A stretch of 33,947 nucleotides of DNA from a virus, in the IMG/VR virus record IMGVR_UViG_3300032296_003616, positions 1 to 33,947 of that record; one strand, given 5' to 3'. The notes beneath the pieces are model-generated. The model worked only from the letters and a program-made list of their open reading frames with translations, did no database searches and had not been told where the DNA came from. Shown here piece by piece: positions 1,813-27,404 of the stretch. The first letter of the stretch is position 1, and each line of letters opens with the position of its first letter. The translations under genes were made by a program, and so were the position numbers.

Positions 1813-2403
1813 ATGTGTAATTGCCAAAGAACATCGCTGCACGAGTCCATGAATAGGCTATTGGTATCAGAAGGCCTCAATTACCACATACAGAATAACG
1901 TACCAATAAACGAGAACATATACCGTCCGCAGTCAGAAAAGTTCATGGACCTTATAGTAGAAGTTAGATCGCTTTACGATAAGGGCCTAATCAACCTATC
2001 AGAAGAAGACAGCGAATACTTTGAAGGCACAGACCTAGGGCGCTTTGGAATATACGAAGGCATAAGAGTACCGTTAGACTTCCCAATGACGCTAGAGTTC
2101 TTGATGGAAGTCAAAAAGAAGTCAAAGAAAAAGCAACCAGCGCTAAACAAACCCAAGCGCGGAGGACCCAAAAAGTTCTACGTCTACGTTAGAAAGCCTG
2201 GCGGAGGAATAAAGAAGGTGACTTTCGGAGACACCACTGGACTAAGCGCAAAGATAAACAATCCAGAAGCGAGGAAGTCTTTCGCAGCAAGACACAAGTG
2301 TTCCCAAGCAAAAGACAAGACCACACCAAAATACTGGAGTTGCAGACTTCCACGGTATGCAAGCCTATTGGGACTCAAATCAAACTTCACAGGCTTTTGG
2401 TAA
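1813..2403 (+). CDS. Conserved basic phage protein with paired Cys near the C-terminus; leader-like N-terminus
   Basis: A 196-residue protein starting immediately after the previous stop codon. Residues 1-20 end in NRLLVSE and then Gly, which fits the T4 prohead-protease site (L/I/V)-x-E followed by a small residue. Residues 100-120 are a very basic linker. Residues 120-180 hold the conserved segment KFYVYVRKPGGGIKKVTFGD, then EARKSFAARHKC (C163) and KYWSCRLP (C177). I recognise this pattern from many marine T4-like phage proteins of unknown function. It ends in aromatic FTGFW. Capsid packaging followed by gp21 cleavage is inferred from the leader only. Confidence 0.8.
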   Translation: MCNCQRTSLHESMNRLLVSEGLNYHIQNNVPINENIYRPQSEKFMDLIVEVRSLYDKGLINLSEEDSEYFEGTDLGRFGIYEGIRVPLDFPMTLEFLMEVKKKSKKKQPALNKPKRGGPKKFYVYVRKPGGGIKKVTFGDTTGLSAKINNPEARKSFAARHKCSQAKDKTTPKYWSCRLPRYASLLGLKSNFTGFW

Positions 2404-2412
2404 TACTAAGCT

Positions 2413-2676
2413 ATGGAAAGACCATACACAGATACAATAGAAGACCACAGTTGCGTTATAAGAGAGTTCGACGAGAACATAGACCCGATAGAACTCATGT
2501 GGCACAGGGACAACGAGCACAGAATAATAGAAGCTGTAGAACCCACAGATTGGCTCGTACAATTTGACAACGAATTACCGATTTCTCTAGATAAACCCAT
2601 ATTTATACCTAAACACGCTTGGCACCGAACCATAAAAGGCACAGGAAAGCTAAAGATAAAGATAACAAAAACATGA
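2413..2676 (+). CDS. Conserved WHRD phage protein, probable cupin-like beta fold
   Basis: An 87-residue protein. ELMWHRDNEHRII, the central DWLVQFDNELP and the terminal FIPKHAWHRTIKGTGKLKIKI form a pattern shared with short cyanophage and marine phage proteins. The alternation of short beta strands with two His-containing turns suggests a small cupin-like barrel, perhaps metal-binding through the two WHR sites, though this is an inference. Its stop codon overlaps the next start in an ATGA (2673-2676), which indicates translational coupling. A late-promoter-like motif lies inside its 3' end at 2598-2607. Confidence 0.8.
   Translation: MERPYTDTIEDHSCVIREFDENIDPIELMWHRDNEHRIIEAVEPTDWLVQFDNELPISLDKPIFIPKHAWHRTIKGTGKLKIKITKT
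2598..2607 (+). promoter_or_regulatory. CATATTTATA motif inside the preceding gene, possible promoter
   Basis: A perfect copy of the window's best motif, CATATTTATA, lies within the codons for KPIFIPK and 65 nt before the ATG at 2673. It may drive the AT-rich gene pair that follows. Because the bases also encode conserved residues, a chance match is possible. Confidence 0.35.
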
Positions 2677-3017
2677 AACAACAAATCAACGAAATCAAAA
2701 GAATGCAACAATTAGCTGGAATTTTAGCTGAAAAAGTATCTATTGGCGATAAGTATTCAGATGGTCAAGTGGAATTTAAAGACATCGAGCCAGGCCAATA
2801 CTTTTTGCAATTTGGATTTAATGGTCAATTATGGAGAAAATCTACTGAAGAACCTAATAAAGCTTTTTTCGTTAAAAATGTAGGTAAAAAAACAGCAGCA
2901 AAGGGTACTAATACTTACATAAAATTAAATAAAAGTACACTCTATACTGGAGAAAGATTCACAGATTCTCATACTGTATATCCTATTGAAAATCCTAAGA
3001 ATATACCAATAGATTAA
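2673..3017 (+). CDS. Putative internal head protein with capsid-targeting-like leader (MKQQINEIK type)
   Basis: A 114-residue protein. The start at ATG 2673 is preferred over the in-frame ATG 2619 because it overlaps the upstream stop as ATGA and because the same leader starts the next gene. Residues 1-20 form an amphipathic helix ending ILAE, a fit to the T4 gp21 cleavage rule (L/I/V)-x-E. Cleavage would release a 94-residue beta-rich domain containing PGQYFLQFGFNGQLWRK and KAFFVKN. The gene is visibly more AT-rich than those before it, which is compatible with later acquisition. The domain function is not recognised. Packaging in the head is an inference from the leader and position. Confidence 0.8.
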   Translation: MKQQINEIKRMQQLAGILAEKVSIGDKYSDGQVEFKDIEPGQYFLQFGFNGQLWRKSTEEPNKAFFVKNVGKKTAAKGTNTYIKLNKSTLYTGERFTDSHTVYPIENPKNIPID

Positions 3018-3048
3018 TTATAGATTTTTATAAAAAAATAACAAAACT

Positions 3049-3273
3049 ATGAAACAGCAAATTAATGAAATTAAGAAAATGCAGCGAATAGCTGGTGTTA
3101 TTAATGAGACTCAAAACTATAATTTAATAGCAAAAGCAAAACAACTATTTCCTAGTTTACAGATTGATGCTAATTCTATATACCTTAATGACAAAATGCT
3201 ATTTTCATCTAATAATGATAAAGTAATAGAAGCATTTATTTTTGGTATGTTAGTTGGAAAAACAGCAAAATAA
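3049..3273 (+). CDS. Second MKQQINEIK-leader small protein, putative internal head protein
   Basis: A 74-residue protein. Its first 20 residues match 14 of 20 positions in the leader of the preceding gene, ending VINE before Thr. The two leaders differ by many synonymous codon changes, so protein-level constraint is implied. The predicted mature part (54 residues) begins YNLIAKAKQLFPSLQID and ends with a hydrophobic segment, AFIFGMLVGKTAK, which may be membrane-active or a buried helix. It is AT-rich like its neighbour. It lies 31 nt after the previous stop, behind a weak TTTTTATA stretch. The function is unknown; the leader is the informative feature. Confidence 0.75.
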   Translation: MKQQINEIKKMQRIAGVINETQNYNLIAKAKQLFPSLQIDANSIYLNDKMLFSSNNDKVIEAFIFGMLVGKTAK

Positions 3274-3351
3274 CAAAGCCGTAAGCTAGTTGCGATATTG
3301 TTCACCAAAATCCATTTATGGAAGCTGATAGTAAAATTCAAAAGAAACTAA

Positions 3352-3558
3352 ATGACTTGGAGATCACAATTCTTAAGCAACGTAGCTACAACGTGTCTGA
3401 TGCTGGCGATGTTTTTCAACCCGCTTGGCTTCGATGCGCTATTCAAACTAGTGATGGATTGGACAGGTTCATTTTGGGCTACGGATATCATTTTTTATGG
3501 CGCTTCGCTTTTGTTTCTTGGCTTGTATTTATTATTCAGAAAACTATCTAAAAAATGA
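3352..3558 (+). CDS. Small two-helix membrane protein
   Basis: A 68-residue hydrophobic protein with two probable membrane segments, about residues 8-28 (ATTCLMLAMFFNPLGFDAL) and 46-63 (IIFYGASLLFLGLYLLF), followed by a positive RKLSKK end. The start at ATG 3352 gives a typical membrane-protein composition, while the overlapping frame from ATG 3318 does not. Its stop overlaps the next ATG as ATGA. The 78 nt upstream (3274-3351) contain no convincing gene, apart from a possible short N-terminal stretch in the other frame (MEADSKIQKKLNDLE). That leaves open an ancestral frameshift. A role in lysis or membrane takeover cannot be decided. Confidence 0.7.
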   Translation: MTWRSQFLSNVATTCLMLAMFFNPLGFDALFKLVMDWTGSFWATDIIFYGASLLFLGLYLLFRKLSKK

Positions 3559-3812
3559 TAAGCTTATTAGACATATTATTTGAGGCCGAGAGAACAAAAT
3601 CAGGGATAAAAGTGAAGAAGGCCTATCTAACAAAGGATAAAGCAGCAATGAAGCGTGAAATAGAAAGGACGTCTAAGTTGAGCGACAAAGATGCATCAGC
3701 TTATGGCAAATGGGAAGCTGATTATGCAGATAAAGATAAGAAGAAAAAATACAAAACAAAAAAATCGAAAGCTACCACAGCTTACGAAAAAAGATTCGGT
3801 AAAAGCAAATGA
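3555..3812 (+). CDS. Basic putative internal head protein with 10-residue leader
   Basis: An 85-residue, very Lys-rich protein. The first ten residues, MISLLDILFE, are followed by Ala. This is the same length and cleavage junction (I/L-x-E before Ala) as the T4 internal-protein leader MKTYQEFIAE. The predicted mature protein of 75 residues carries GKWEADYADKDKKKKYKTKK and an ending AYEKRFGKSK. Its net positive charge suits binding to packaged DNA. Both ends overlap neighbours by ATGA, so it is translationally coupled to the membrane protein before it and the DUF5824-type gene after it. Packaging is inferred, not seen. Confidence 0.8.
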   Translation: MISLLDILFEAERTKSGIKVKKAYLTKDKAAMKREIERTSKLSDKDASAYGKWEADYADKDKKKKYKTKKSKATTAYEKRFGKSK

Positions 3813-4081
3813 TAAGCCTACTACAAATACTAAACGAAGCTTTTGCTGCTAACGTAGAAAAAGCACTGGCAAATAAAGCCAAAGCAACCGGTGTATCTAA
3901 AACTATAATACGCCAAGTGTACCAAAAAGGTTTGGCGGCTTGGAAAAGGGGACACAGACCTGGCGCTAGTCAACACCAGTGGGCTTTAGGTCGCGTAAAT
4001 TCGTTTTTAACTGGAAAAGGCGGGGCAAGGAAAGCGGACAAAGGACTATGGAAAAAAGCAAGAAAAAGTAAAAAGAAATAA
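3809..4081 (+). CDS. DUF5824-type protein with capsid-targeting-like leader
   Basis: A 90-residue protein. MISLLQILNE followed by Ala repeats the leader of the previous gene (8 of 10 residues identical), again like the T4 internal-protein leader. The rest contains GVSKTIIRQVYQKGLAAWKRGHRPG followed by QHQWALGRVNSFLTG, a family widespread in T4-like and marine phages that I know as DUF5824. The C-terminus is basic (KARKSKKK). In other phages the domain usually occurs without a demonstrated function. Here the leader suggests that it travels inside the capsid. It starts within the stop of the preceding gene (ATGA). Confidence 0.85.
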   Translation: MISLLQILNEAFAANVEKALANKAKATGVSKTIIRQVYQKGLAAWKRGHRPGASQHQWALGRVNSFLTGKGGARKADKGLWKKARKSKKK

Positions 4082-4082
4082 G

Positions 4083-4601
4083 ATGAAAAACATATCACTA
4101 CAAGCTTTAGTAAGAGCCCTAAGAGAAGAGCAAAACGTAGACCTACCGGGCAACCAAGAAAAAATAGACGTAGCAGAACCAAAAGGCAAGATAACCGCGG
4201 CTGACTTCAAGAAGCTCAGATCAATGAAGAAGGAAGGCCAATACAAACACAGTATCGATCAACTTCTAAAGATCGTACAGACCAAAAAAGCTGGCCCAGA
4301 ATACAAAAAAGCTTTGATGGATCTGATCAATCTGGCTAAAAAGAAAACAGGCAAAGAGATACATTCTATAGCCGATTTGAAACAGGCTTTAGATTACGAA
4401 GAGCCCAAAATCAGAGAGGGAGCCGATCACGAAGTAGCTATGGCAATGAGCAGTCTAAAGGAGATCGTTAGCAACGCTTCTCAGTTGATGGACAAGCTTG
4501 GAGGAATGGAAAGGGATATTCCAGGTTGGATTCAAGACCACATAACAAACGCAGAGAACTACATAGAACAAGCAAACCAAGGCTTTCACGAGTTGCAATA
4601 A
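4083..4601 (+). CDS. Putative head-associated protein with C-terminal conserved phage helical domain
   Basis: A 172-residue protein whose start lies one base after the previous stop. Residues 1-16, MKNISLQALVRALREE, form an amphipathic leader with a possible cleavage after LRE. Residues 40-105 are a basic helical region. Residues 115-172 (DHEVAMAMSSLKEIV, then PGWIQDHITNAENYIEQA) are a helical hairpin that I recognise from the C-termini of many environmental phage virion proteins, where the signature W-(V/I)-Q-x-(K/H)-I-T-x-A-x-x-Y-I is conserved. The domain probably mediates assembly, but its exact role is unknown. The candidate promoter at 4605 separates this gene from the next. Confidence 0.8.
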   Translation: MKNISLQALVRALREEQNVDLPGNQEKIDVAEPKGKITAADFKKLRSMKKEGQYKHSIDQLLKIVQTKKAGPEYKKALMDLINLAKKKTGKEIHSIADLKQALDYEEPKIREGADHEVAMAMSSLKEIVSNASQLMDKLGGMERDIPGWIQDHITNAENYIEQANQGFHELQ

Positions 4602-4604
4602 AAG

Positions 4605-4614
4605 CATATTTATA
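4605..4614 (+). promoter_or_regulatory. CATATTTATA motif, candidate late promoter
   Basis: A perfect CATATTTATA four bases upstream of the ATG at 4619, in an otherwise short intergenic space. If it acts like a T4 -10 element, transcription would start at or next to the start codon, giving a leaderless or nearly leaderless message. Confidence 0.6.
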
Positions 4615-4618
4615 AGAT

Positions 4619-6712
4619 ATGAACTTGGACGCGCTAATACTAAGACAGATGCTTCTCGAGCAAGACGAAGAGCAACCTGAACAGGAAGAAAAAAAGGAGC
4701 TAACTCCCTTTGAACAAGACCCATTGGGCTTCATACTAAAGAAGTACGTAAGCCTAAACGAGCTCTTGACCGAACTCATGACAGAGTCTTTCAAAGAGTA
4801 CCTCAACGCCATATTCATAGTGGCGCCAAAGCCAACCACATTCAAAGTATTGCTACACAACGGTCAGTACTTCTTTTTGACTTACCTAAATAAAGCGTAC
4901 CAAGCAACAATATCGGGTAAGAACTACTACTTAATGACGCTTGGAGAAAAGCAACTTTGCATGCAGGCAATCGCAAGACTTTTACGCTACGGATCTCCCC
5001 TAAAAACAAAGGGACCCGAAGGCGCAGAACAAGACACAGGACCTGGTGAAGGCGAAGCAGGAGAAGAATCAGCTCCAGAAACACCACCAGCAGAAGGCGG
5101 AGAGGAGATACAGGAAGCTAAGATATTGGCTGAAATGTTAAAAAGAGAGTTGTTTAATGAAGCCACAAAAGGTATTATTAGACCGTCAACGGGTAATGAA
5201 ACTTCTTTAAAAGAGGGATTAGTTTGTCTATTTTACGACGTTTTTAAAATACCATCTTTGGTGACTGAAATAGAAGATCTTCATGCATTGGTTACCAATA
5301 AACAAACAGCAAGTGAAATAAAAGAAGAGGACGTAACAAAGGTAACTAATAAAATATCTCAAGTATATAATAAGAATAAACAATATTACGGATCTGGGAA
5401 ATCAATGCCAGAGAATCTAGATCTTTATGTTAAGTATGTGTTTTTAACCGGACAAGAGGTAGATACACTAACTAACGCAATATCGGCTGCAGCGTCTATA
5501 CACAAAGAAGTGTCAGCTGAAGGAAGAATAATAAGAAACCAAGACTTTGATAAAATTAGAACAAAAGCTGTTTCGTTAGTAAAAGAACAATATAACATAT
5601 CGTTACAGGCGGATAATTGGTGTCCTGGAGACGCGTATTTGGTAATAAATCAAGCTGGAATATCAAACTGTTTAAAGGCTAATACAGTAAATATTGGAAA
5701 AGATAGCATAAATCACCAATTTGAAAAAGACGGAGATATAATAGCTATATCGCTAAAAGAAGAAAAAGCTCAAGCGGGAAAAGCAACTACATTTGCCAAT
5801 ACAGTATTTAGTAACTCTTTTGACGCAAACGTAGATCCTAATGATAAATACGGTACATCTGACAATAAAGATTTGGCAAAGATCTCAGCAAAAATAGCTA
5901 GATTCGAAGACTATTTCTATGGACCTAAAAGAGGCGGCAAACGTTCTCAAAGCTACATAAACTCTATCACAAAAGATAAAAAGTTACACGGTTCGGTAAA
6001 CTCAATACTTCAAGCAGTTGGAAAACCAAAAATAAAAACAGACGGAATAAAACCAGAATATAGGTCAGAAGAAGCTTTTTATAAGGCTAACAAAACTATT
6101 TTTGATGATCTAGAATCTGCTATAAAAACTATAAAATCCAAACTAACAGGTTCAGACTCTTCTGCAAAAGTTAAAAAATCTTTTACAACCAGTAGAGATA
6201 AGTTTATAAGTGATATAAAAAAATACAAAATAGAAGTAAGCGCAGAAGATAGCAATAAGTTTTCTAAAGACGTAGAAAAAGAGAACGACGATTTTATAAA
6301 AGTACTATCAATGAAAACGGCCACGTACGAATTGGCAAGTTTGATAATCGATAGATGGACAGATAAGAACGCAAAAATATCCCCCGCATATAAAAAAATA
6401 CAAGAAATATCAAACCCATTTGTTGCGTTAACAGCGTTTGCTATAGCTGAAGCTGGACTAAGTCCAAGTTTTTACAAAGTAATAGGAAGCTCTAAATCTC
6501 TAATGGGTCACGCTGATTACTTCGACGCTAAAGCAGAGATAGACATTGACTCAAGTAGCACAAAAATGACACTTGTAGATTCTCCAAAACAAGCGGGTTT
6601 CTTACTGTCTTACGTAACAAAACTAGGAAAAAAGAACTATTCCACAAAGCTAGTGTTCAGATTCTCAGGCTCTGAAATAAGAATAGAGGTACAAGAATTG
6701 AAAGCACAATAA
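4619..6712 (+). CDS. Large composite protein: leader, helical domain, acidic linker and nuclease-like C-terminal part
   Basis: A 697-residue protein. Residues 1-14, MNLDALILRQMLLE, end in a possible gp21 site. Residues 25-125 form a compact alpha/beta domain. Residues 130-163 are a Glu/Gly/Pro linker. Residues 164-183 (EIQEAKILAEML, then RELFNEATKG) look like a second, internal leader with IQE-A and FNE-A junctions. From about nt 5130 the DNA becomes clearly more AT-rich. Residues 334-390 hold NWCPGDAYLV, NHQFEKDGDIIAISLKEEKA and QAGKA, an order (D338, then a hydrophobic strand followed by S-L-K380 and carboxylates) compatible with a PD-(D/E)XK nuclease core. The remainder is Lys-rich. I cannot name the family with certainty. 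A packaged or injected nuclease is a hypothesis. Confidence 0.8.
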   Translation: MNLDALILRQMLLEQDEEQPEQEEKKELTPFEQDPLGFILKKYVSLNELLTELMTESFKEYLNAIFIVAPKPTTFKVLLHNGQYFFLTYLNKAYQATISGKNYYLMTLGEKQLCMQAIARLLRYGSPLKTKGPEGAEQDTGPGEGEAGEESAPETPPAEGGEEIQEAKILAEMLKRELFNEATKGIIRPSTGNETSLKEGLVCLFYDVFKIPSLVTEIEDLHALVTNKQTASEIKEEDVTKVTNKISQVYNKNKQYYGSGKSMPENLDLYVKYVFLTGQEVDTLTNAISAAASIHKEVSAEGRIIRNQDFDKIRTKAVSLVKEQYNISLQADNWCPGDAYLVINQAGISNCLKANTVNIGKDSINHQFEKDGDIIAISLKEEKAQAGKATTFANTVFSNSFDANVDPNDKYGTSDNKDLAKISAKIARFEDYFYGPKRGGKRSQSYINSITKDKKLHGSVNSILQAVGKPKIKTDGIKPEYRSEEAFYKANKTIFDDLESAIKTIKSKLTGSDSSAKVKKSFTTSRDKFISDIKKYKIEVSAEDSNKFSKDVEKENDDFIKVLSMKTATYELASLIIDRWTDKNAKISPAYKKIQEISNPFVALTAFAIAEAGLSPSFYKVIGSSKSLMGHADYFDAKAEIDIDSSSTKMTLVDSPKQAGFLLSYVTKLGKKNYSTKLVFRFSGSEIRIEVQELKAQ

Positions 6713-13890: not shown

Positions 13891-15201
13891 ATGACAAACA
13901 TAACCAAACTTTATCAACAGCTACAAGAGGGTAAGACAACCCGCGAATATTTCGTTAGAGAAGCCCGCAGACAGTTTCCACAGTTCATTAGTCCTGTGAC
14001 TTCTTTTGACGACGCTGTAAATATATTGAAGAGCAAGAGACTGGTGTCCGAAAACTTAACTAAAGAAGTTAGCGGAGCTAGATTTGATACGTTGGGAGAA
14101 ACTCAAATGACAGATCAAGCGATAATTAAACGTGCAAAACAATTGGGAATAGAGGACAGCATTGTATTAGATGGAGAGGGCGGTGTAGAGAACGCTGAAG
14201 AAATGATAGCTTTAATAAACAACTCAGAGCCTATAAACGAAGCCCACAAGCTTGACGCAGAACAGATACTAGACAGAATGTCTCCATACGCTGTTAAGAA
14301 GGGAATAGAGGTAGAGCTAAAGAAAGAAAAGACTTACGACAATACAACTATCGATAAGGTAAAAGAGAGAGTGGCCAGGAAGCTCAAAAAGAACCCAAAC
14401 GCTTACGACGATCAGATCATAGCCAACGTAAAGAAGGTTGAAAAGCAGGACAAAGAGCTCGAAGCTACAGAGCTAAAAAAAGAGTTGGTCGACAAGAAGA
14501 ACGCGATGAGAAAGCCTAAGGGGTTTAAAGCTGATAAGGCTAACACAAAAGCTTCTAAGAGAGAAAACAGAAAGGGCAAACCAAAGGGCGTTAAAGTTAT
14601 GCCTGATAAGGGCGTAACAGGGACTGAGAAGGTGATAAAAGAAGACGTCATAGAGAATATCAAAAGCTGGCTTCAAGAGAACATAACGAGGGAATACCAC
14701 CCAGGTATGGAAGTACAAACACCAGACGGACACGGTATAGTAAAAGAGGTCAAAGGCGGTACGTTAACAGTTGAATTGGACGATAGTAATTTGAAAGACT
14801 ACCAATTCAATGTGATAAATAAGTTGATGGACAAAGAGCCCGAATCACAACCAGAAATTCAACCGTCTTCTGGTGATGAAATGACTAAAGCCGATAGAGA
14901 CGCTGCATGGGCAAAAATAGGAACGCCTATGGGTAGCGTTAAAGGCACAGATACTGGAATTCCCAAGTCGCTTTACTCAGCTATGACACCAGAGGAAAAA
15001 ATAGCCGCTATAATAGAAAAGTTGAACAAGATGGAAGAGGGCGAAAAGAAAGAGAAGATCAAAGAGATGATAAAGTCTAAGTTAAAAGAAGCGAAAGCTT
15101 TAGTAGTACCTAAAACAGCAACAGATCAACAAGTAACAAAAATAGTTTCTACTGATCCGACTATAAAACCTGGAACACCTTTAGAGATAATAAGAAAATA
15201 A
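13891..15201 (+). CDS. Probable prohead core protein with KOW-like domain
   Basis: A 436-residue protein directly upstream of the prohead protease, with the two sharing one base (TAATG). The N-terminus (KLYQQLQEGKTTREYFVREARRQFPQF, then PVTSFDDAVNILKSKRL) is a module I recognise from proteins of this position in many marine phages. It contains LQE-G and VRE-A junctions fitting gp21 specificity. Residues 120-245 are Lys/Glu-rich helices. Residues 270-320 (GMEVQTPDGHGIVKEVKGGTLTVELDD) form a KOW/SH3-like barrel. Further sites (PINE-A, LKE-A) lie along the chain. A scaffold or core function with proteolytic removal is inferred. Confidence 0.8.
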   Translation: MTNITKLYQQLQEGKTTREYFVREARRQFPQFISPVTSFDDAVNILKSKRLVSENLTKEVSGARFDTLGETQMTDQAIIKRAKQLGIEDSIVLDGEGGVENAEEMIALINNSEPINEAHKLDAEQILDRMSPYAVKKGIEVELKKEKTYDNTTIDKVKERVARKLKKNPNAYDDQIIANVKKVEKQDKELEATELKKELVDKKNAMRKPKGFKADKANTKASKRENRKGKPKGVKVMPDKGVTGTEKVIKEDVIENIKSWLQENITREYHPGMEVQTPDGHGIVKEVKGGTLTVELDDSNLKDYQFNVINKLMDKEPESQPEIQPSSGDEMTKADRDAAWAKIGTPMGSVKGTDTGIPKSLYSAMTPEEKIAAIIEKLNKMEEGEKKEKIKEMIKSKLKEAKALVVPKTATDQQVTKIVSTDPTIKPGTPLEIIRK

Positions 15202-15839
15202 TGTCCAAACAACTACTGATAGACCACTCGGTATTCCAACCGACGAACATACTAAGGGAATCAATCGATGCTAAGACCCGAAACATGGTCGTGATTGGTC
15301 TTGTGCAAGCTTGCGACAAACCAAATGCAAACAGACGCATTTACCCATACGATGTACTGTATCCTCAGGTTGAGAAATACGTAACTGGTCCAATAGCTGA
15401 GAATAGAGCGTTGGGAGAATTGGATCACCCCGAGTCTTCCATCATAAACTTAAAGAACGTATCACACAACATATTGGAACTGTGGTGGAAGGGAAAAGAT
15501 CTCTACGGAAAGGTTGAGATACTACCTACACCTTCAGGCAACATACTAAAGGAGCTCTTCCTAAATAACATCACAGTAGGCATATCTTCAAGAGCTTTAG
15601 GTTCCACTACTCAGATAGGCGAAGGCTTGGTTAGAGTGGAAGAGGACTTAGATATAATCTGTTGGGACTTCGTATCCCAACCAAGTACCTACGGAGCTTA
15701 CATGCGACCACAACAGTCGGTAGGCTTAGGCATAAACGAATCTGTTAACTTCCAACAACAAGAGACAAAGTACAGTAAGGCAAATCAGCTCATGAGAGAC
15801 CTTATTTGTGAAATGTCAGGAGTTTGTTGCGTTAACTAA
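15201..15839 (+). CDS. 21: Prohead core protease, gp21-like
   Basis: A 212-residue serine protease, the same size as T4 gp21. It matures the prohead by cutting core, shell and internal proteins after (L/I)-x-E. GELDHP (72-77) carries the catalytic His76, and TVGISSRALGS (125-135) carries the Ser, as in T4-type prohead proteases. GLVQACDKPNANRRIYPYDVL is the usual N-terminal strand and loop. The sequence NILRE-S at residues 17-21 is a plausible self-processing site. It is encoded immediately before scaffold and capsid, the classical 21-22-23 order. The Cys-rich C-terminus (MSGVCCVN) is unusual. Confidence 0.95.
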   Translation: MSKQLLIDHSVFQPTNILRESIDAKTRNMVVIGLVQACDKPNANRRIYPYDVLYPQVEKYVTGPIAENRALGELDHPESSIINLKNVSHNILELWWKGKDLYGKVEILPTPSGNILKELFLNNITVGISSRALGSTTQIGEGLVRVEEDLDIICWDFVSQPSTYGAYMRPQQSVGLGINESVNFQQQETKYSKANQLMRDLICEMSGVCCVN

Positions 15840-15958: not shown

Positions 15959-17170
15959 ATGGACAACAAAATTTACAAAGAAGCGATTCTTGACGCCAAA
16001 GCATTACGCGCCGGTGCAATCGCAAACGCAAAATCAATCATGCAAGAAGCACTTGAACCCGCTATTCAAGAAATGATGCGCCTTAAACTATCCGAAGAAC
16101 TCGAAGAAGAAATCGAAGAAGGATACGAAGAGGAAGGAATTGAAGAATACGGTGACGAGCATGCTGTAGCCACAAAAGACGCTTTAGAGAAAAAAGAAGA
16201 AGGCGAAATGTATGATGAAGAGGTTGAAGAAGTTACTGACGCTACTTTAGAAGAAATCCTTGCTGAGCTCGACGCTTTGGAAGAAGATCAACTAAACGAA
16301 GCCGAAGAAGACGAAGCTGAAGACGAAGAAGAGTCTGAAGAAGCTGAGGAAGACGAAGAAGGCGTAACAGATGACACTAAAGTAGTTCAACTAACTTTGG
16401 GAGATCTTAAAGCCGCTTTGATGCCTCAAGCCGCTGAAATGGGAGACGAAGCCGGTGAAGAATCAGAAGAAGCTCCTCTATCTTTGGACGAAATTTTAGC
16501 TGAAATGGAAGCTGAAAAGTACGAAGAAGCAATCGGGGAAGAAAGCAAAGAACCCGTTAAAGAGTTTATGCAATCTCAAGGCGCTTCTCAAGCTTTTGGA
16601 GAAATGCTACTTGGTTTGGCCAGAAAAGTTGGTATTCCTGTTGAAGGCATAGACGCAACAACTATCGGTACTGCCGTAGGAAGCGTAGCTGGAGCAGCTG
16701 GTTTAATAACTAGCGCGATAGTAGCTGGAAACTGGGATAAAATAAAAGCCATCATCTCCTCAGCACTTGGTAAAATTAAAGGTAAATCTGCAGTAGCGGA
16801 AGAAAAAGATCACGGTATTGAAGAAGAACTGAAAACAGCAAAAGAAACAATCGCCGAATTGAGAGAGAGCATCAACGAAATCAACCTCTTGAACGCTAAG
16901 CTTCTTTACATGAACAAGATCTTCAAAGCCAAATCTTTGACTGAGTCTGAAAAAGTAAAAGTAGTTAAAGCTTTCGACAGAAACGCAAGCATCAAAGAAG
17001 TTAAAAACACTTACGAGACGCTTAAAGAATCTATCCAAGCTAAAAAATCACAGGTTATTAAAGAATCTGTAGGTTTCGCATCAAAACCGATCGGAGTAGC
17101 CCCTAAAACTAACATCGTGGAAGCTGACGCTTTCGTTAACAGGTGGCAAAAGATCGCAGGTATCAAATAA
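15959..17170 (+). CDS. 22: Prohead scaffold/core protein, gp22-like, with a hydrophobic insert
   Basis: A 403-residue protein (T4 gp22 has 269). It would form the internal core on which the shell assembles and then be degraded by gp21. Residues 45-200 are extremely acidic. Residues 285-360 hold the gp22 signature, with TIAELRESINEINLLNAKLL, then YMNKIFKAKSLTESEKVKVVKAFD. The C-terminus, NIVE-ADAFVNRWQKIAGIK, contains a cleavage-like junction. Others are IMQE-A (30), LNE-A (114) and ILAE-M (182). Residues 225-275 form an unusual Gly/Ala-rich hydrophobic segment followed by the cationic WDKIKAIISSALGKIKGK, which is absent from T4 gp22. It is followed by gp23 after 35 nt of A-rich DNA. Confidence 0.9.
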   Translation: MDNKIYKEAILDAKALRAGAIANAKSIMQEALEPAIQEMMRLKLSEELEEEIEEGYEEEGIEEYGDEHAVATKDALEKKEEGEMYDEEVEEVTDATLEEILAELDALEEDQLNEAEEDEAEDEEESEEAEEDEEGVTDDTKVVQLTLGDLKAALMPQAAEMGDEAGEESEEAPLSLDEILAEMEAEKYEEAIGEESKEPVKEFMQSQGASQAFGEMLLGLARKVGIPVEGIDATTIGTAVGSVAGAAGLITSAIVAGNWDKIKAIISSALGKIKGKSAVAEEKDHGIEEELKTAKETIAELRESINEINLLNAKLLYMNKIFKAKSLTESEKVKVVKAFDRNASIKEVKNTYETLKESIQAKKSQVIKESVGFASKPIGVAPKTNIVEADAFVNRWQKIAGIK

Positions 17171-17205: not shown

Positions 17206-18840
17206 ATGGCAAATTTAGTAAGCTCGCTTTTAAGCGAATCAGCCCAAACTGCCTTCGAAAGCCAAACAGGTGTTGCTACCCGTCTTTCGAAAAAATGGGA
17301 AAAATCCGGACTTTTAGAAGGTCTTCAGGATTACGAAAAGAACAACATGGCAGTGTTGTTAGAAAACCAAGCAAAACAGCTCGTAGTTGAAACCACACAA
17401 ACTAACCAAGGCGGTAGCAACTGGAGCGCAGGAAACGGCGAACAGTGGGCTGGCGTAGCTCTTCCATTGGTTCGTAAGATCATGGGTCAGATCGCTGCGA
17501 AAGAGTTCGTTAGCGTACAGCCTATGAACCTTCCTGCTGGTCTAGTATTCTACCTTGATTTCCAATACGGAGACACTAAGACTCCTTTTGGATCTGGTAA
17601 CTCAATCTACGGTACTCCTTCTGCTAACTTCGGTAACTTGGCTGCTGGTGGTCTTTACGGCGCTGGTAAGTTCGGTTACTCTTTGAATCAGTTCAGTGCT
17701 TCTTCTACTGCTACTATCACTTCAGCTTCTTACGCTGACATCGACTTTAACGCAGACCTTTCTGCTTCTTTCGTTGCTGGTCAAGTTAAGAAGATCGCTG
17801 TAGCATCTAGTGATTTAACAACTGCTGATTTGGACGCTGTTCGTTCTTTCATACCAGTATCTGGATCTACTTTCACAACCGCTGCTACTCGCGTGTTGCA
17901 AAACTTCACAAAAGTTAACGGCGCAAACGTTGAGTTCTTCGTAACTGCTTCTACTGCAGAAGTTGCTGGTACAGCATTTACAGTGTTCTACAGCAAGCAA
18001 ACCGACTTCAACTCTCGCGGTGACTTCGAAGACAGAACTGGCTTACCTTCAGTTCCTAACGCTGCTTCTAACACATCTATCGTTATCCCTGAGATCAACG
18101 TACAGATGAAGAATCAGACCGTTTCTGCTAAAACTCGTAAGTTGAAAGCGCAATGGACTCCTGAATTTGCACAAGACCTTAACGCTTACCACTCTCTTGA
18201 CGCTGAAGCTGAATTGACTGGCATCCTTTCTGAGCACATCTCTCTTGAGATCGACCTCGAAGTTATGGATATGCTAATCAACAACGCTCCTACTGTTGAG
18301 TACTGGTCAGCTAAGGTTGGTAACCAAATCAACGCTACTAACAGCGATTTCACTTCTAACACTGCTGGCGTGTTCTACACTCAAATGACTTGGTTCCAAA
18401 CACTTGGTATCAAACTTCAGAAGGTGTCTAACATCATCCACCAACGTACTTTACGCGGTGGCGCTAACTTCATGGTAGTGTCTCCTACAGTTGCTACAAT
18501 CCTTGAGTCAATCCCTGGATTCGCTGCTGATACTGACGGAGCTGCTGACACAATGAAGTACGCTTTCGGTGTACAGAAGATCGGTGCTTTGAACAGCCGT
18601 TACAAAGTGTACAAGAACCCTTACATGACTGAGAACGTGATCCTTATGGGTTATCGCGGTAACCAGTTCCTTGAGTGTGGCGCTGTATACTCTCCGTACG
18701 TTCCATTGATCATGACTCCTCTCGTTTACGATCCTAATACTTTTACACCTCGCAAAGGTATCATGACTCGTTACGCGATGACAATGATCAGACCGGAATT
18801 TTATGGTCTAGTTGTAGTAGCAGATACAAATGTGATCTAA
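17206..18840 (+). CDS. 23: Major capsid protein, gp23-like
   Basis: A 544-residue shell subunit (T4 gp23 has 521). I start it at ATG 17206 after an A-rich leader; the in-frame ATG 17143 overlaps gp22 and would add 21 unlikely basic residues. KEFVSVQPMNLPAGLVFYLDFQYG and KTRKLKAQWTPEFAQDLNAYHSLDAEAELTGIL (split here for length: KTRKLKAQW, EFAQDLNAYH, DAEAELTGIL) are classic gp23 blocks. By alignment with T4 (cut at E65), gp21 cleavage is predicted after LVVE at residue 62. Residues about 150-270 form a Ser/Thr/Ala-rich insertion domain. Codon use differs from neighbours (ATC, GCT, ACT and CTT preferred over ATA), as expected for the most abundant protein. A strong terminator follows. Confidence 0.96.
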   Translation: MANLVSSLLSESAQTAFESQTGVATRLSKKWEKSGLLEGLQDYEKNNMAVLLENQAKQLVVETTQTNQGGSNWSAGNGEQWAGVALPLVRKIMGQIAAKEFVSVQPMNLPAGLVFYLDFQYGDTKTPFGSGNSIYGTPSANFGNLAAGGLYGAGKFGYSLNQFSASSTATITSASYADIDFNADLSASFVAGQVKKIAVASSDLTTADLDAVRSFIPVSGSTFTTAATRVLQNFTKVNGANVEFFVTASTAEVAGTAFTVFYSKQTDFNSRGDFEDRTGLPSVPNAASNTSIVIPEINVQMKNQTVSAKTRKLKAQWTPEFAQDLNAYHSLDAEAELTGILSEHISLEIDLEVMDMLINNAPTVEYWSAKVGNQINATNSDFTSNTAGVFYTQMTWFQTLGIKLQKVSNIIHQRTLRGGANFMVVSPTVATILESIPGFAADTDGAADTMKYAFGVQKIGALNSRYKVYKNPYMTENVILMGYRGNQFLECGAVYSPYVPLIMTPLVYDPNTFTPRKGIMTRYAMTMIRPEFYGLVVVADTNVI

Positions 18841-18947: not shown

Positions 18948-20297
18948 ATGGAAGTAAAATGTAAGATATGCGGATACGAAACAACTAGACGGGGTTTAAT
19001 GCCACATGTATCACAAAAACACGAAATAGGATTAGAAGACTACGTTGCAAAGTATGGAGAATATAGAAAGCGTCAATCTAATCTGCTCACACGGTCGAAA
19101 GACAGCGAAGTTATCTGTAAAGTGTGTAATGAGAAATGCGCCTCTGAACGACACCTGTCTTATCACCTAAAGATGAGTCACAATCTCAAAAGACGAGATT
19201 ACATAACCAAATACCTATTAAACGATAACATACCATTGTGTAAGTGCGGTTGTGGAGAACAAGTAAGCATACGATCGAGTGGAAAGCCGCCGTATTGGTC
19301 TGAGTACATCTCAGGGCACAACATATACGATGCTCACGTTGGAGCTAAAAGGTCTCACGAATCAAAGATGAAAATGAGACAAGCAGCTATAAATAGAATG
19401 AAAGAGAAGAACTCTGTATTTTTTTACAACGCTGTATCCAAACAAGAGTTAGATTTTGCGCAGTGGCTTAAAGAAGAGCTTAATCAAATTGTAGTATCAA
19501 GCGATAAGTCTGTTCTCTCTGGTCTGGAATTGGATATGTATCTACCAGAAAATAATTTAGCCATAGAGATAAATGGAATAAGATTTCACAGTGATATGTA
19601 CAAAGACAGGAATTATCACTTAAAGAAAACCAAAGAGTGTAACGAGAAAGGCATACGATTAATACACATTTGGAGCTGTGATCTATTAAACAAAGAAGAC
19701 ATAATAAAGTCGCAAGTTAGACACATATTGGGATTGAGTCAAAACAAAGTTTACGCTAGGGATTGCGAAATAAAAGAAGTATCGATAAATGATTGTCACG
19801 TGTTCCTTAGAAAAAACCACCTCCAAGGTTCAGTTGTATCTAAGCACCGTTACGGCCTGTATCACAACAATGAGCTAGTTCAGATAATAACCTTCGGTAA
19901 GATGAGATACGCTAAGAGGGAAAACGAACACACAAACGCTTTTGAGCTACTAAGACTGTGTTCCAAGCTAAACACAACAGTAGTGGGCGGGTCTAGTAAG
20001 CTTTTCAACCACTTTATAAAGCTACATAACCCTAATTATGTTTTATCATACGCAAATAGGGATTGGTCGATGGGATCTGTGTATAATTTACTCAATATGA
20101 AAGAAGCCGGTTATACCCCTCCAGGTTACTTCTACTCAAACGGTAAGGCTAAGTTGACCAGGTACCAGTGTCAGAAACACAAGTTGGTAGAAATGGGATT
20201 CGACAAAGAGATGAGCGAATACGACATAATGCAATCCCGTGGATATTACAAAGTTTGGGATTGTGGTAACATAAAATACGAATTAAAACTGAATTAA
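18948..20297 (+). CDS. Homing-endonuclease-like protein: zinc fingers, Vsr/EDxHD nuclease, Mom/GNAT-like C-terminus
   Basis: A 449-residue protein. Two C2H2-type fingers, C5/C8/H20/H25 and C57/C60/H73/H78, are each followed by a Y-(V/I)-x-K-Y motif. A third Cys knuckle is CKCGCGE (98-103). Residues 163-245 form a Vsr-like PD-(D/E)XK nuclease with E167, D196 and NLAIEINGIRFHSDMYKDR (E207, H214, D216), matching the EDxHD homing-endonuclease family. The C-terminal half (VFLRKNHLQG, LLRLCSKLNT, VVGGSSKLF, VLSYANRDWSMGSVY) resembles Mom-like acetyltransferase folds often fused to such nucleases. It is free-standing downstream of gp23, which is intact, so it is not an intron or intein. It is probably a selfish element that cleaves related phage genomes. 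Confidence 0.85.
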   Translation: MEVKCKICGYETTRRGLMPHVSQKHEIGLEDYVAKYGEYRKRQSNLLTRSKDSEVICKVCNEKCASERHLSYHLKMSHNLKRRDYITKYLLNDNIPLCKCGCGEQVSIRSSGKPPYWSEYISGHNIYDAHVGAKRSHESKMKMRQAAINRMKEKNSVFFYNAVSKQELDFAQWLKEELNQIVVSSDKSVLSGLELDMYLPENNLAIEINGIRFHSDMYKDRNYHLKKTKECNEKGIRLIHIWSCDLLNKEDIIKSQVRHILGLSQNKVYARDCEIKEVSINDCHVFLRKNHLQGSVVSKHRYGLYHNNELVQIITFGKMRYAKRENEHTNAFELLRLCSKLNTTVVGGSSKLFNHFIKLHNPNYVLSYANRDWSMGSVYNLLNMKEAGYTPPGYFYSNGKAKLTRYQCQKHKLVEMGFDKEMSEYDIMQSRGYYKVWDCGNIKYELKLN

Positions 20298-20821
20298 TGA
20301 AACTACAAGACATAATAAAGCGGATTTACGAAGAACAAAGTTACGCAAATTCAAAAAGTTGGACGCAGCAAAACTTGTACGAGACATACGCATTTATTTC
20401 GGAGATGTTGAATCCAGATGACGCCTACAACTACGCGGCTTTCGGTAAAGGGATATGGTCGTACAAAGACTCAAAAGACAACGAATATTACGTTAGATTA
20501 GCCTATGCTCCAGACTTAAAAGACGAACACAATAGCTATTTAGAGCTCAAAACCTATTGGTTACAGAACGGTAAGGCCCAATACAGCGATTTTAGGCCCA
20601 ATGTGTCAACCATAGACCTACACAAACGATCGAATACAGTTGCAAAGCTTTATAGAGACGAAATCGTACCATTTTTTAAGTCACAAAACCTATCGAACAT
20701 TATAAAGATCTTCCCCATAGATTCAGCTAGATACAGACTATCGAAAATGATGGTAAAAAAGTATACCCCAGAAGACCTAAACGTGTCCTTCTTTGACGAT
20801 AGAATTCAGATAGAGAAGTAA
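20297..20821 (+). CDS. Unrecognised protein co-transcribed with the endonuclease; leader-like N-terminus
   Basis: A 174-residue protein sharing one base with the endonuclease stop (TAATG). The first 13 residues, MKLQDIIKRIYEE, form an amphipathic segment with an IYE junction like the putative capsid-targeting leaders near 2.7-4.7 kb. The middle is aromatic-rich (YNYAAFGKGIWSYKD, then EYYVRLAYAPDL) and looks like a beta sheet. The end contains FPIDSARYRLSKMMVKKYTPEDL, a motif I believe recurs in environmental phage proteins of unknown function. Its presence in the mobile cassette could mean cargo transfer or readthrough of an older resident gene. I do not recognise a function. Confidence 0.75.
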   Translation: MKLQDIIKRIYEEQSYANSKSWTQQNLYETYAFISEMLNPDDAYNYAAFGKGIWSYKDSKDNEYYVRLAYAPDLKDEHNSYLELKTYWLQNGKAQYSDFRPNVSTIDLHKRSNTVAKLYRDEIVPFFKSQNLSNIIKIFPIDSARYRLSKMMVKKYTPEDLNVSFFDDRIQIEK

Positions 20822-24919: not shown

Positions 24920-25780
24920 ATGGCATCACTAACTGGAAATAAGATCAAAGACACGTACCAATCGTTGTTAAAAACAGCTGATAACGGGCAAGTAACTAGC
25001 GTATCAAAGAACATAACAGACGGGTTTGGTTCAGGTAGCGGATTATATTTAAAAGACACAGGTGTAACGCTCAGCGGATCTGTGGCTTTATCTGGAATCA
25101 CATCGGCTTCCCAAACAAACGTACTGACCTATGACACAGCGTCAGGACAGATATATTATACAGCATCTAGTGCTATATCAACTCCACCATCTTTACAACA
25201 GGTAACAACTGCTGGAAGCTCATCCTCAGATAATGTAACAGTTAGATCTTTATCAATACCTACACTCCTCTCCACGATTACTTTAACTGGCTCAGCAAGT
25301 CCAAATACGCTTATATTTACAAGCTCAATCGGATCACGACCAAATATATTTGGAGTAGGATCAATGTCTGCAACCGGCCTTGGTGTATTTAATTCCACAA
25401 CACCATTCGGATTTAATATATCTGGAGTTGCAACATCTAATAGAAACTTAACTCTTCCTGATGAAACCGGCACTCTTGTTCTTAAAGTAAATGGAATATC
25501 TGCAGACTCATCTGGAAGTATAACACTGCCAACCGGCTCCTTTCTCACTACAGGAAGCCTATCAACTACACAGCAACTATCAGGTTCACTAAACATAACT
25601 GGCTCTCTCAATTTCTTCTCAGGCAGCCAACAACAATTACAAATACAAAACGGCATACTAATACTATCACAAGTATCAGCAAGCTTAGACTTTGCAAACG
25701 ATGCAGCAGCTGCAGCAGGCGGAGTACCGCTAGGAGGACTATACAGAAACGGAAACGCAATCTCAATCAGAATAGTATAA
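24920..25780 (+). CDS. Tail-fibre-like protein
   Basis: A 286-residue Ser/Gly/Thr-rich protein. It contains repeated GSLxITGS-type strands (GSFLTTGSLSTTQQLSGSLNITGSL), typical of trimeric fibre shafts, and a NRNLTLPDETGTLVL block found in phage fibre and adhesin proteins. The C-terminus, ASLDFANDAAAAAGGVPLGGLY followed by RNGNAISIRIV, is a cap I recognise from many environmental phage tail proteins. It is followed after 10 nt by the SHAEG-repeat gene. A virion role is likely; which fibre it belongs to is unknown. Confidence 0.8.
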   Translation: MASLTGNKIKDTYQSLLKTADNGQVTSVSKNITDGFGSGSGLYLKDTGVTLSGSVALSGITSASQTNVLTYDTASGQIYYTASSAISTPPSLQQVTTAGSSSSDNVTVRSLSIPTLLSTITLTGSASPNTLIFTSSIGSRPNIFGVGSMSATGLGVFNSTTPFGFNISGVATSNRNLTLPDETGTLVLKVNGISADSSGSITLPTGSFLTTGSLSTTQQLSGSLNITGSLNFFSGSQQQLQIQNGILILSQVSASLDFANDAAAAAGGVPLGGLYRNGNAISIRIV

Positions 25781-25790
25781 AAAATAAAAC

Positions 25791-27404
25791 ATGTCACAAA
25801 CTTATAGAATAGGATCTCTCAATTTCACTGGTTCGCAAGCTATATTAAGCGCTTCGTTAGACGTATCAGGCTCAGGCAGGTTTACAGATGGATTAATAGT
25901 AACACGCTCGCTATATGTAACAGGATCAGAACCAACCATCTTTTCAGCAACAGGAGACGTACTCGAAGTATCAGGTAGCTTTGTTCTATACGGCAGTGCT
26001 AGTATATCGGATTCAGTAGTAATAGAAGGACCCGTTAATATAAAGAATAGTACAAGGGTAACAGGCTCACTAGACATATCAGGTTCAATCATTCCCGCTG
26101 TAGAAGGAGTAAGCGCAACATCTAGCTTTAGCTTAGGTAGTGCTACAAATGCTTGGAAAGATATTTGGGTATCAAACGGCACAATCAATTTCTTAGATGG
26201 TGCTGGTAACGTACAAGCTGCTCTAACAAGTAACGATCAAGGCCTTCAAATTGAAAACTACGCAGCTACAACAGGAAGTGTACCTGTATTTAATATAAGT
26301 GGCAGCGGTAATATAACAAACGGATTGACTGTAACAGGTTCATTAGCACAAGGAAGTAGTGTTGTAGCTACTGGATCTTTTTCACACGCTGAAGGCAACC
26401 AAACAATAGCATCAGGCTCATATTCACATGCTGAAGGAGATAGTACACAAGCAATCGGAGCTGCTTCACATGCAGAAGGCGGTCAAACACAAGCTATAGG
26501 TAACTATTCACACGCTGAAGGCAGAGAAACACAGGCTGTAGAAGCTTATTCACATGCAGAAGGATACCAAACAGTAGCATCAGGCTCATATTCTCACGCC
26601 GAAGGTGAAGGTACACAAGCAATAGGAGAAGGTTCCCATGCTGAAGGCACATATACTCAAGCAACAGGATACGTTTCACATGCAGAAGGATACCAAACAA
26701 TAGCATCAGGTTCATATTCTCACGCAGAAGGTAGCAGTACACAAGCAATAGGAGCAAATTCACACGCAGAAGGTAGCAGTACACAAGCAATAGGAGATGG
26801 TTCACACGCTGAAGGAAATATTACACAAGCCGTAGGAGACTACTCTCATGCTGAAGGAGATAACACTCGAGCAGTAGGAAACTATTCACATGCTGAAGGT
26901 CAAGAAGCAATAGCATCAGGATCATACTCACATGCTGAAGGATATGATACACGAGCAATAGGAAACTACTCACACGCAGAAGGATCAAGTACACAGGCAA
27001 TAGGGGATTATTCGCACGCCGAAGGCTACCAAACAATAGCATCAGGCTCATGGTCACACGCTGAAGGATATAACACACAAGCAATATTACAAGGATCACA
27101 CGCAGAAGGCTACTTCACAATAGCATCTGGCTCCCACCAACACGTATCAGGTCGGTACAATGAACACGGCAATGAGTTATCACTATTCGTAGTAGGTATA
27201 GGCGATAATAACGAAACCAGAAAAGACGGCTTCACAGTAGACGTAGATGAAAACGGAAGTGGATCTGTAATGATACCAAACAACGTAAATGCACCATCAG
27301 TAGCAAAAACAGGTTCAATGTATGTTGATCCTGCAAACAACAAACTATGGATATACACTGGGAATGGTGGAGTAAGTGGATGGGTAACTTCTAGTTTGGG
27401 ATAA
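25791..27404 (+). CDS. YadA-head-like (SHAEG repeat) tail adhesin
   Basis: A 537-residue protein. Residues 1-190 are GSxxVTGS fibre strands. Residues 195-446 consist of 18 tandem 14-residue repeats of the form GxYSHAEGxxTxAx, the Hep_Hag/YadA-head pattern that folds as a trimeric left-handed beta roll. The repeats are followed by a degenerate copy (SGSHQHVSG), a neck-like block, GNELSLFVVGIGDNNETRKDGF, and a C-terminal KTGSMYVDPANNKLWIYTG end. In bacteria this fold makes surface adhesins; here it would form a host-binding fibre head. Repeat number may vary by recombination. Confidence 0.9.
   Translation: MSQTYRIGSLNFTGSQAILSASLDVSGSGRFTDGLIVTRSLYVTGSEPTIFSATGDVLEVSGSFVLYGSASISDSVVIEGPVNIKNSTRVTGSLDISGSIIPAVEGVSATSSFSLGSATNAWKDIWVSNGTINFLDGAGNVQAALTSNDQGLQIENYAATTGSVPVFNISGSGNITNGLTVTGSLAQGSSVVATGSFSHAEGNQTIASGSYSHAEGDSTQAIGAASHAEGGQTQAIGNYSHAEGRETQAVEAYSHAEGYQTVASGSYSHAEGEGTQAIGEGSHAEGTYTQATGYVSHAEGYQTIASGSYSHAEGSSTQAIGANSHAEGSSTQAIGDGSHAEGNITQAVGDYSHAEGDNTRAVGNYSHAEGQEAIASGSYSHAEGYDTRAIGNYSHAEGSSTQAIGDYSHAEGYQTIASGSWSHAEGYNTQAILQGSHAEGYFTIASGSHQHVSGRYNEHGNELSLFVVGIGDNNETRKDGFTVDVDENGSGSVMIPNNVNAPSVAKTGSMYVDPANNKLWIYTGNGGVSGWVTSSLG
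26373..27128 (+). repeat. 18 tandem 42-bp repeats encoding SHAEG units
   Basis: Eighteen in-frame 42-bp units with SHAEG at a fixed position, five or six of them ending IAS or VAS and most others ending QAI or QAV. Codons differ among copies (CAC/CAT, GCT/GCA/GCC), so the array has diverged at synonymous sites while the protein pattern is kept. Confidence 0.95.

Follow-up and report, generated by a model that had tools for sequence, protein, structure and literature searches.

Leader genes and head genes of the window

The window, that is, the whole 33,947-nucleotide stretch of viral DNA analysed here, carries a row of leader genes with head genes nearby. Inspection of the N-termini of the genes at 2673–4664 shows that all six start with a short leader whose last residues, (L/I)xE, form the motif at which the protease family represented in the same window cleaves. 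The original prediction had assigned leaders of a single family to at least six consecutive or nearby genes (2673, 3049, 3555, 3809, 4083 and 4619). Leaders were found in 6 of 6, although they belong to several families, with two main kinds: leader A, with the consensus M-x-x-L-x-x-[I/L]-L-x-E, and leader B, with the consensus MKQQINEIKRMQQLAGIxxE. The genes are near-consecutive only, with a leaderless ORF interposed at 3318–3558. This small ORF is of membrane type. The leader genes and possible leader genes, with their predicted cuts, are:

1849..2403, + strand: possible leader gene, MNRLLVSE, cut, GLN; start uncertain, 1813 or 1849
2673..3017, + strand: leader-B gene; leader DNA 2673–2732, MKQQINEIKRMQQLAGILAE, cut, KVS...
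3049..3273, + strand: leader-B gene; leader DNA 3049–3108, MKQQINEIKKMQRIAGVINE, cut, TQN...
3555..3812, + strand: leader-A gene; leader DNA 3555–3584, MISLLDILFE, cut, AER...
3809..4081, + strand: leader-A gene; leader DNA 3809–3838, MISLLQILNE, cut, AFA...
4083..4601, + strand: type A-like leader gene; leader DNA 4083–4127, MKNISLQALVRALRE, cut, EQN
4425..4589, + strand: C-terminal domain of gene 4083, residues 115–169
4619..6712, + strand: type A-like leader gene, 697 aa; leader DNA 4619–4660, MNLDALILRQMLLE, cut, QDEE
20297..20821, + strand: possible leader gene, MKLQDIIKRIYE, cut, EQS

Behind leader B lie bodies of 94 aa (gene 2673) and 54 aa (gene 3049), both without assigned function, and for the former no homologue was found. 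Homologues of gene 3555 retain the type A leader, and the body of gene 3809 is a DUF5824 domain (PF19141, E=1.4e-15). In gene 4083 a second cut-type motif, I-R-E (DNA 4410–4418), precedes the C-terminal domain. The body of gene 4619 is kept in more than 50 relatives, where the leaders vary. Its predicted structure (mean pLDDT 55) comprises a leader helix at residues 3–15, a low-confidence linker and an ordered domain at about 35–123, the only part that is well modelled, and a Foldseek search of this model gave no PDB match at E<=0.001. Pfam and PHROG searches assign no function to most leader-protein bodies. The membership of two further proposed genes, 1813 and 20297, is doubtful, their fit or homologue support being weaker than for the six: gene 1813 fits the leader form only if translation starts at an in-frame ATG, at 1849, and the N-termini of its homologues are mixed; for gene 20297 the fetched loci contain no homologue. 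A secretion signal was rejected as the role of the leaders, which by eye lack a long hydrophobic core.

The head genes are:

15201..15839, + strand: gp21-type prohead protease (Peptidase_S77; PF03420, E=4.3e-24), the presumed leader cutter
15959..17170, + strand: scaffold/prohead core protein, at the gp22 position between the protease and capsid genes
17132..17167, + strand: scaffold C-terminal tail, FVNRWQKIAGIK, the element resembled by leader B
17206..18840, + strand: major capsid protein Gp23 (PF07068, E=1e-78, match from residue 79)

The gp21-like protease had been correctly recognized: it scores 85.5 bits against a Peptidase_S77 family cut-off of 27 and is 30% identical to T4 gp21. Gp23 scores 265.8 bits (family cut-off 24.4). 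The scaffold was identified without a family model, from gene order, which for protease, scaffold and capsid is the same in T4, and from its conserved ends; it matches no Pfam family and only weakly a PHROG without assigned function. The N-terminus of Gp23, MANLVSSLLSE, with a cut-type end and then S, resembles leader A, which could be convergence on the cleavage site, leader A being a loose hydrophobic pattern. The maturation cut of Gp23 is predicted after E62, between VVE and TTQ (DNA up to 17391), and almost all of the 53 homologues aligned have the same motif type, V/I/L-x-E, at position 62. The cut region of the capsid protein thereby agrees in motif with the ends of the leaders.

The scaffold tail and leader B

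Judged by its residues, leader B of genes 2673 and 3049 is a copy of the scaffold C-terminal tail, a likeness overlooked in the original prediction. Scaffold homologues end without exception (61/61) in the motif R[W/M/L]xx[L/I]AG[I/L], and 56 of 65 scaffolds carry a Glu shortly before the tail. A profile built from 18 distinct scaffold tails only was scanned across proteins not selected by leader, 557,544 positions in all after removal of the scaffolds. At a score of at least 14 it gave 27 matches, 23 of them within the first 26 residues, and the reversed profile gave 0; the leader of gene 2673 scores 23.2. Of the four remaining matches, two are C-terminal, in ParB-like proteins with an additional N-terminal leader, the gene for one of these double-tagged proteins sitting between the protease and scaffold genes. 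The leaders mostly have M where the window phage's own scaffold has W, so the two do not strictly co-vary. RM378, Mel-JY01 and the jumbo phage LR756508 have a related scaffold tail, but leader B did not turn up in them in a search whose sensitivity was limited. No paper describing the likeness was found in the literature accessible without subscription. As a separate lead only, the C-termini of T4 gp22 (VSVYAKVASRF) and cyanophage P-HM2 gp22 (MNAYVQQLAKRL) are faintly tail-like.

Leader B probably docks its cargo by copying the peptide through which the scaffold would attach at its C-terminus, R-[W/M]-Q-x-[L/I]-A-G-[I/L], so that the cargo would occupy the place of the scaffold tail. A competing possibility, which we regard as less likely, is that the leaders are indeed capsid-targeting propeptides but that leader B binds the scaffold body or the protease and not the partner of the tail, the likeness then stemming from common descent, or from a helix for self-association present in both, with no competition. 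The capsid-targeting sequences (CTSs) of T4 have been described as core-binding (PMC9026906, PMC5694885), and a self-associating tail would likewise bring cargo into the core. The match, however, is to one short tail at the extreme end of all scaffold homologues, as for a docking peptide, and the same tail recurs C-terminally in two further proteins that bear leaders. Docking at the site of the scaffold tail is preferred for leader B. Leader A, for its part, is similar to the propeptide at the N-terminus of the phage's own capsid protein and to those of T4 gp24 and IPIII.

Reuse, swapping and position of the leaders

Leader B alone was expected to be attached to many unrelated domains, and it is: of 125 matches in IMG/VR, 122 are N-terminal, 2 are cut by contig ends and 1 is internal, and by BLAST the bodies of the 102 distinct proteins fall into 76 unrelated families. 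All leaders together account for 179 body families, capsid proteins counted in. The position is strictly terminal, and 257 Gb of bacterial and archaeal genomes gave 1 match, inside a 602-aa cellular protein. Leader B is also present in the isolated Flavobacterium phage immuto, for which the literature search found no virion proteomics paper; its leader-B genes stand at record positions 25061 and 111675, with the predicted cut following IITE. Among 108 proteins only 22 Pfam families were matched, none of them in more than two proteins. The bodies include enzyme-like domains (DUF5824, zeta-type kinase, Acb1/2H-like and WYL_2). The Acb1/2H-like protein, part of the cargo in relatives, had no match in a PDB sequence search, and its model, from two sequences (pLDDT 28.6), gives no usable structure. 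Weak PADLOC matches among leader proteins were to mad8, LmuB, REase_II, LeoBC and PDC-S01.

These bodies bear on whether the leader proteins are mostly extra scaffold or core proteins, consumed in head building, instead of delivered effectors. The two ParB-like proteins tagged at both ends, one of them encoded between protease and scaffold, would suit such a role, and T4 core proteins are likewise gp21 substrates (PMC5694885). The high diversity of the bodies, the enzyme-like domains included, and the thin spread of the only 22 Pfam families nevertheless make it unlikely, and delivery of the cargo is the reading we retain.

The leaders had been proposed to be interchangeable on unrelated proteins, and they are both reused on unrelated bodies and swapped between homologues. 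Identical body types occur behind different leaders: the C-terminal domain of gene 4083 directly follows leader B in locus L014 and leader A in locus L247, and in immuto homologous bodies differ by leader, B versus a third leader, FDLKKFLVEN. Where two homologues carry leaders of different class, their alignment begins no earlier than the predicted cut in 56 of 62 pairs; for homologues sharing a leader class this holds in 389 of 2,605 pairs. The pairs are phylogenetically non-independent. Unrelated genes can gain, lose or swap the tag because it is a short terminal module.

Leader genes cluster in six large relatives: within the 16 kb upstream of the terminase 18 of 92 genes have a leader, compared with 16 of the 799 other genes (capsid gene excluded; Fisher p = 2e-10). 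Some leader-like N-termini sit far from head genes. Among 72 T4 genes, a generalised leader-A pattern matches ipII, ipIII, gp24 and gp2; ipII, ipIII and gp24 have known propeptides. Leader A thus fits one loose pattern with T4 ipII/ipIII, outside which leader B falls. IPI had been credited with MKTYQEFIAE, but actually begins MKTFKEFTSTTTPVSTITEA. Short amphipathic N-terminal helices are able to bind membranes, and, with some leader genes outside the head region, the leaders might send proteins elsewhere (host membrane, replication compartment) with no removal in the head. This is very improbable given the conserved glutamate at the leader end, the head-region clustering and the resemblance both to the scaffold tail and to T4 ipII/ipIII/gp24, all of which favour the capsid as destination.

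In a pooled set of 3,313 distinct proteins from all loci, including loci fetched for leader B, leader A was found at 212 N-termini and leader B at 134. Among 14,908 starts at internal Mets the counts were 36 and 8, and per shuffled set 18 and 0.15. In the leader-unselected set, leader A stands at 6.3% of N-termini (127 of 2,018, including those of about 38 capsid proteins) and at 0.18% of internal Mets. Chance, short phage proteins commonly beginning hydrophobic, lysine-rich and Glu-containing, could draw on the looseness of the leader-A pattern, which fits 0.18–0.24% of internal Met starts, but is contradicted already by the position and swap tests, is opposed by the internal-Met, shuffled, position and profile controls and by T4 matches in just 4 of 72 genes, three with known head propeptides, and is exceedingly improbable. 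The leaders of genes 2673–4664 are confirmed as real, beyond chance.

Probable capsid targeting and known systems

We favour, with a probability of roughly 75%, the reading that the leaders serve as propeptides that target internal head proteins of a T4-like phage to the capsid, leader B acting through its copy of the scaffold tail. The original interpretation of the leader genes is borne out in part. On sequence grounds capsid targeting is well supported, because the leaders are reused and swapped, protease and Gp23 are encoded nearby and T4 genes match the pattern. We infer that the leader proteins are docked, cleaved, packaged and injected and act on the host: during head assembly each leader would dock its cargo on the inside of the prohead, the gp21-type protease would cut after the (L/I)xE glutamate to leave the cargo free inside the head, and the freed cargo would likely be ejected along with the DNA. 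Whether immuto-related T4-like phages head-load in this way a large, quickly exchanged set, through scaffold-docking-peptide tags at either end that are removed by the protease, with counter-defence enzymes (e.g., Acb1/2H-phosphoesterase) acting before phage gene expression, we judge to be evenly balanced.

Unrelated small proteins with putatively removable tags, one kind of which is scaffold-like, suggest the loading of a changing helper set into heads, which probably reaches the next cell. The literature searched names no binding site for the T4 leader; the scaffold-tail copy names a concrete partner site. Leader B also provides a search handle, any phage gene starting KRMQxLAGIxxE being a candidate for an injected protein. 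This handle gives dozens of families, mostly without known function and some with counter-defence-like domains, from aquatic phages including immuto.

In herpesviruses the scaffold C-terminus binds the capsid protein, and the maturation protease cuts before it, releasing the scaffold; the Glu shortly upstream of the tail in 56/65 scaffolds here is comparable, whereas no description of cargo copying the tail was found in that source (PMC12474303), and the likeness is one of analogy, not homology. In SPN3US and phiKZ the prohead protease strips Glu-ending propeptides of ejection proteins, with a targeting role inferred. The window leaders have the same Glu end and a predicted cleavage, but those propeptides are mostly longer than 100 residues and no scaffold counterpart of them is confirmed (PMC5694885). 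Phage P1 DarB likewise has a capsid-targeting N-terminus, 30 residues of which are enough to package a reporter, although no consensus leader or scaffold likeness is reported for the Dar proteins (PMC9024508).

The T4 gp24 propeptide, MAKINELLRE cut before S, has the form of leader A and of the window capsid N-terminus (MANLVSSLLSE, then S), but stands on a shell protein, not on cargo. The T4 CTSs are the direct precedent (PMC9026906, PMC12373910): the leader is sufficient for packaging and has affinity for the core (PMC9026906), and Ip1-3, which have only the leader in common, block GmrSD restriction enzymes (PMC12373910). Unlike T4 IPI–IPIII, the window phage group has many more leader genes and several leader families, its leader genes adjoin terminase/portal, and leader B matches the scaffold C-terminal tail, with no T4 counterpart found in the comparison. 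Both systems share an N-terminal leader of 10–20 residues, ending in a gp21-type site, on otherwise unrelated small proteins.

Leader genes and the head module

The 33,947-base virus record, taken from IMG/VR, carries a T4-like head module, in which the gp21-like protease of the original prediction is indeed encoded. Among isolates, Flavobacterium phage immuto has the most similar capsid protein (54% identity).

Head genes of the window, by start position
8033, terminase
9649, portal
15201, prohead protease (Peptidase_S77, E=4.3e-24; 30% identity to T4 gp21)
15959, scaffold, assigned from gene order and conserved ends
17206, Gp23 capsid protein (E=1e-78)

A zinc-finger protein between the capsid and PhoH genes (18948-20297) resembles a homing endonuclease by eye, with weak Pfam matches, and a tail-region protein (25791-27404) contains YadA-head-type SHAEG repeats (PF05658, E=7.7e-10).

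The N-termini of six genes (2673, 3049, 3555, 3809, 4083 and 4619) match their original description as leaders akin to T4 capsid-targeting sequences. They are mainly of two kinds, each with a predicted cut after its final Glu: leader A, M-x-x-L-x-x-[I/L]-L-x-E (MISLLDILFE, MISLLQILNE and longer variants at 4083 and 4619), and leader B (MKQQINEIKRMQQLAGILAE and MKQQINEIKKMQRIAGVINE). The adjoining DUF5856/starvation-inducible-regulator PHROG protein (1441-1812) is itself devoid of a leader.

Among the 3,313 distinct proteins of all fetched loci, leader A was found at 212 N-termini, versus 36 of 14,908 internal-Met starts and 18.4 per shuffled set of N-termini; for leader B the figures were 134, 8 and 0.15. 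Leader and homologue counts are not phylogenetically independent. Because some loci in this pool were chosen for carrying leader B, the fairer figure for leader A comes from the leader-unselected set, 127 of 2,018 N-termini versus 0.18% of internal-Met starts, with about 38 of the 127 being capsid proteins. Gene starts were taken from our own simple caller, and annotated starts were used in the T4 and immuto tests. Six large relatives carry leaders on 18 of 92 genes within 16 kb upstream of the terminase and on 16 of 799 elsewhere (p = 2e-10), a concentration near the head genes that is strong in two, borderline in two and not seen in two, one of which has no such upstream segment.

As an independent check, the leader-A pattern was applied to 72 annotated T4 genes and matched gp24, ipII, ipIII and gp2. 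Removal of the first three leaders by gp21 has been reported (PMC9026906, PMC5694885). The DNA end protector gp2 (gene 2 of NC_000866; L338:21062-21886, minus strand) starts with MAIFQIINE, followed by STPQ after the predicted cut, and this N-terminus may be an unrecognised capsid-targeting propeptide.

The scaffold tail and leader B

The motif F[V/I]xR[W/M]QK[L/I]AGIK, or a close variant, forms the C-terminal end of all 61 scaffold homologues found. Distant relatives retain the tail, as in immuto (VSRWQKLAGIIK), Microcystis phage Mel-JY01 (VERMKKLAGIVK), Rhodothermus phage RM378 (ERIKRLAGL) and a 484-kb jumbo phage (SRMQKLADIS). Judged by sequence, this motif is the core of leader B. In a non-circular test, a 10-column profile built from 18 distinct scaffold tails only was run over 557,544 positions of leader-unselected proteins with the scaffolds removed. 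It gave 27 matches at a score of at least 14, 23 of them within the first 26 residues and four elsewhere; the reversed profile gave no N-terminal matches in the same proteins. Of these four, two lie at the C-terminus of ParB-like proteins that are homologous to each other and bear a leader at the N-terminus as well. From these positions we conclude that the motif is a terminal tag, seen at either end.

ParB-like proteins (match below the curated cut-off) bearing a leader at the N-terminus and a tail like that of the scaffold at the C-terminus, in related viral loci
L084:1233-2099, plus strand, DGHHRW, between protease and scaffold genes
G007:50615-51544, also given as L185:12615-13544, plus strand, DGHHRW

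We found no earlier description of the likeness between leader B and the scaffold tail in the open-licence literature, and one may exist.

Leaders on unrelated bodies

A DNA pattern encoding KRMQxLAGIxxE, whose fixed residues cannot serve as evidence of conservation, was scanned across IMG/VR with no further condition and gave at least 125 matches. Among those listed, 122 lie at most 16 residues from a start Met, two are truncated by contig ends and one is internal. The bodies of at least 102 distinct leader-B proteins among these matches fall into at least 76 families (BLAST E<0.01), as expected by the original prediction for a search with the leader alone. In bacterial and archaeal genomes totalling 257 Gb the pattern matched once, within a protein of 602 residues from a Lachnospiraceae genome.

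The C-terminal domain of 4083 directly follows leader B in one related locus (L014) and leader A in another (L247), and leaderless relatives also exist. In two families, the members from IMG/VR contigs bear leader B and those from immuto a third type of leader, FDLKKFLVEN. The 4619 body is kept in more than 50 relatives with differing leaders, e.g. MIKLKDILKLIIEE. In 56 of 62 pairs of homologues with unlike leaders, the alignment starts no earlier than the predicted cut; for pairs sharing a leader class, this holds in 389 of 2,605. On these alignments, the leader is a module and bodies change leaders. Within the 4619-6712 family, the N-terminal domain (residues ~35-123) is conserved and the C-terminal part variable, as in effector-end-swapping proteins.

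Proposed packaging and cargo

In the simplest model, the scaffold tail would serve for docking, and leader B would be a copy of this peptide attached to cargo. The cargo would be built into the prohead and then cut by the S77 protease after (I/L)xE. We infer docking, cleavage, packaging and injection of the leader proteins. A Glu with a compatible preceding residue occurs shortly upstream of the tail in 56 of 65 scaffolds. An alignment of 53 capsid proteins shows Glu in 52 at the position equivalent to residue 62 of the window's capsid protein, nearly always with V, I or L two residues earlier, and the match to the Gp23 family begins at residue 79. This fits the cleavage rule of the model.

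Pfam matches among 108 leader proteins cover 22 families, one or two proteins each, and most bodies are without an identified function.

Leader proteins with enzyme-like bodies, in related viral loci
L314:4102-4665, minus strand, leader B, 2H-phosphoesterase-like/Acb1-like (HCT...HMT; Acb1 model E=6.6e-6, just under the curated cut-off)
L241:584-1147, plus strand, leader B, 2H-phosphoesterase-like/Acb1-like (HCT...HMT; Acb1 model E=4.8e-6, just under the curated cut-off)
L252:639-1481, plus strand, leader A, zeta-toxin-type P-loop kinase
L186:16404-17207, plus strand, leader A, zeta-toxin-type P-loop kinase

The Acb1/2H-like protein with leader B is possibly a virion-carried anti-CBASS enzyme. 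Its relative from a jumbo phage of 635 kb begins with a T4-style leader (MKLKKYKQFIKE, cut predicted at its end), and the relatives from LR756508 and Maribacter phage Molly have no leader at their start. The jumbo phage LR756508 also has a six-gene run upstream of its capsid gene (L336:8493-10814) with another leader-like form, e.g. MEINRKQLRGLIKEELE and MNIKKSKLRKIIREEI.

In herpesviruses, the scaffold C-terminus binds the capsid protein and the maturation protease cut releases that end (PMC12474303). Leader A resembles the window capsid protein's own N-terminus (MANLVSSLLSE, cut before S) and that of T4 gp24 (MAKINELLRE, likewise before S), a weaker likeness because the leader-A pattern is loose. 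The injected T4 proteins Ip1-3 have only the leader in common and block GmrSD restriction enzymes (PMC12373910), which makes a counter-defence role plausible for part of the cargo.
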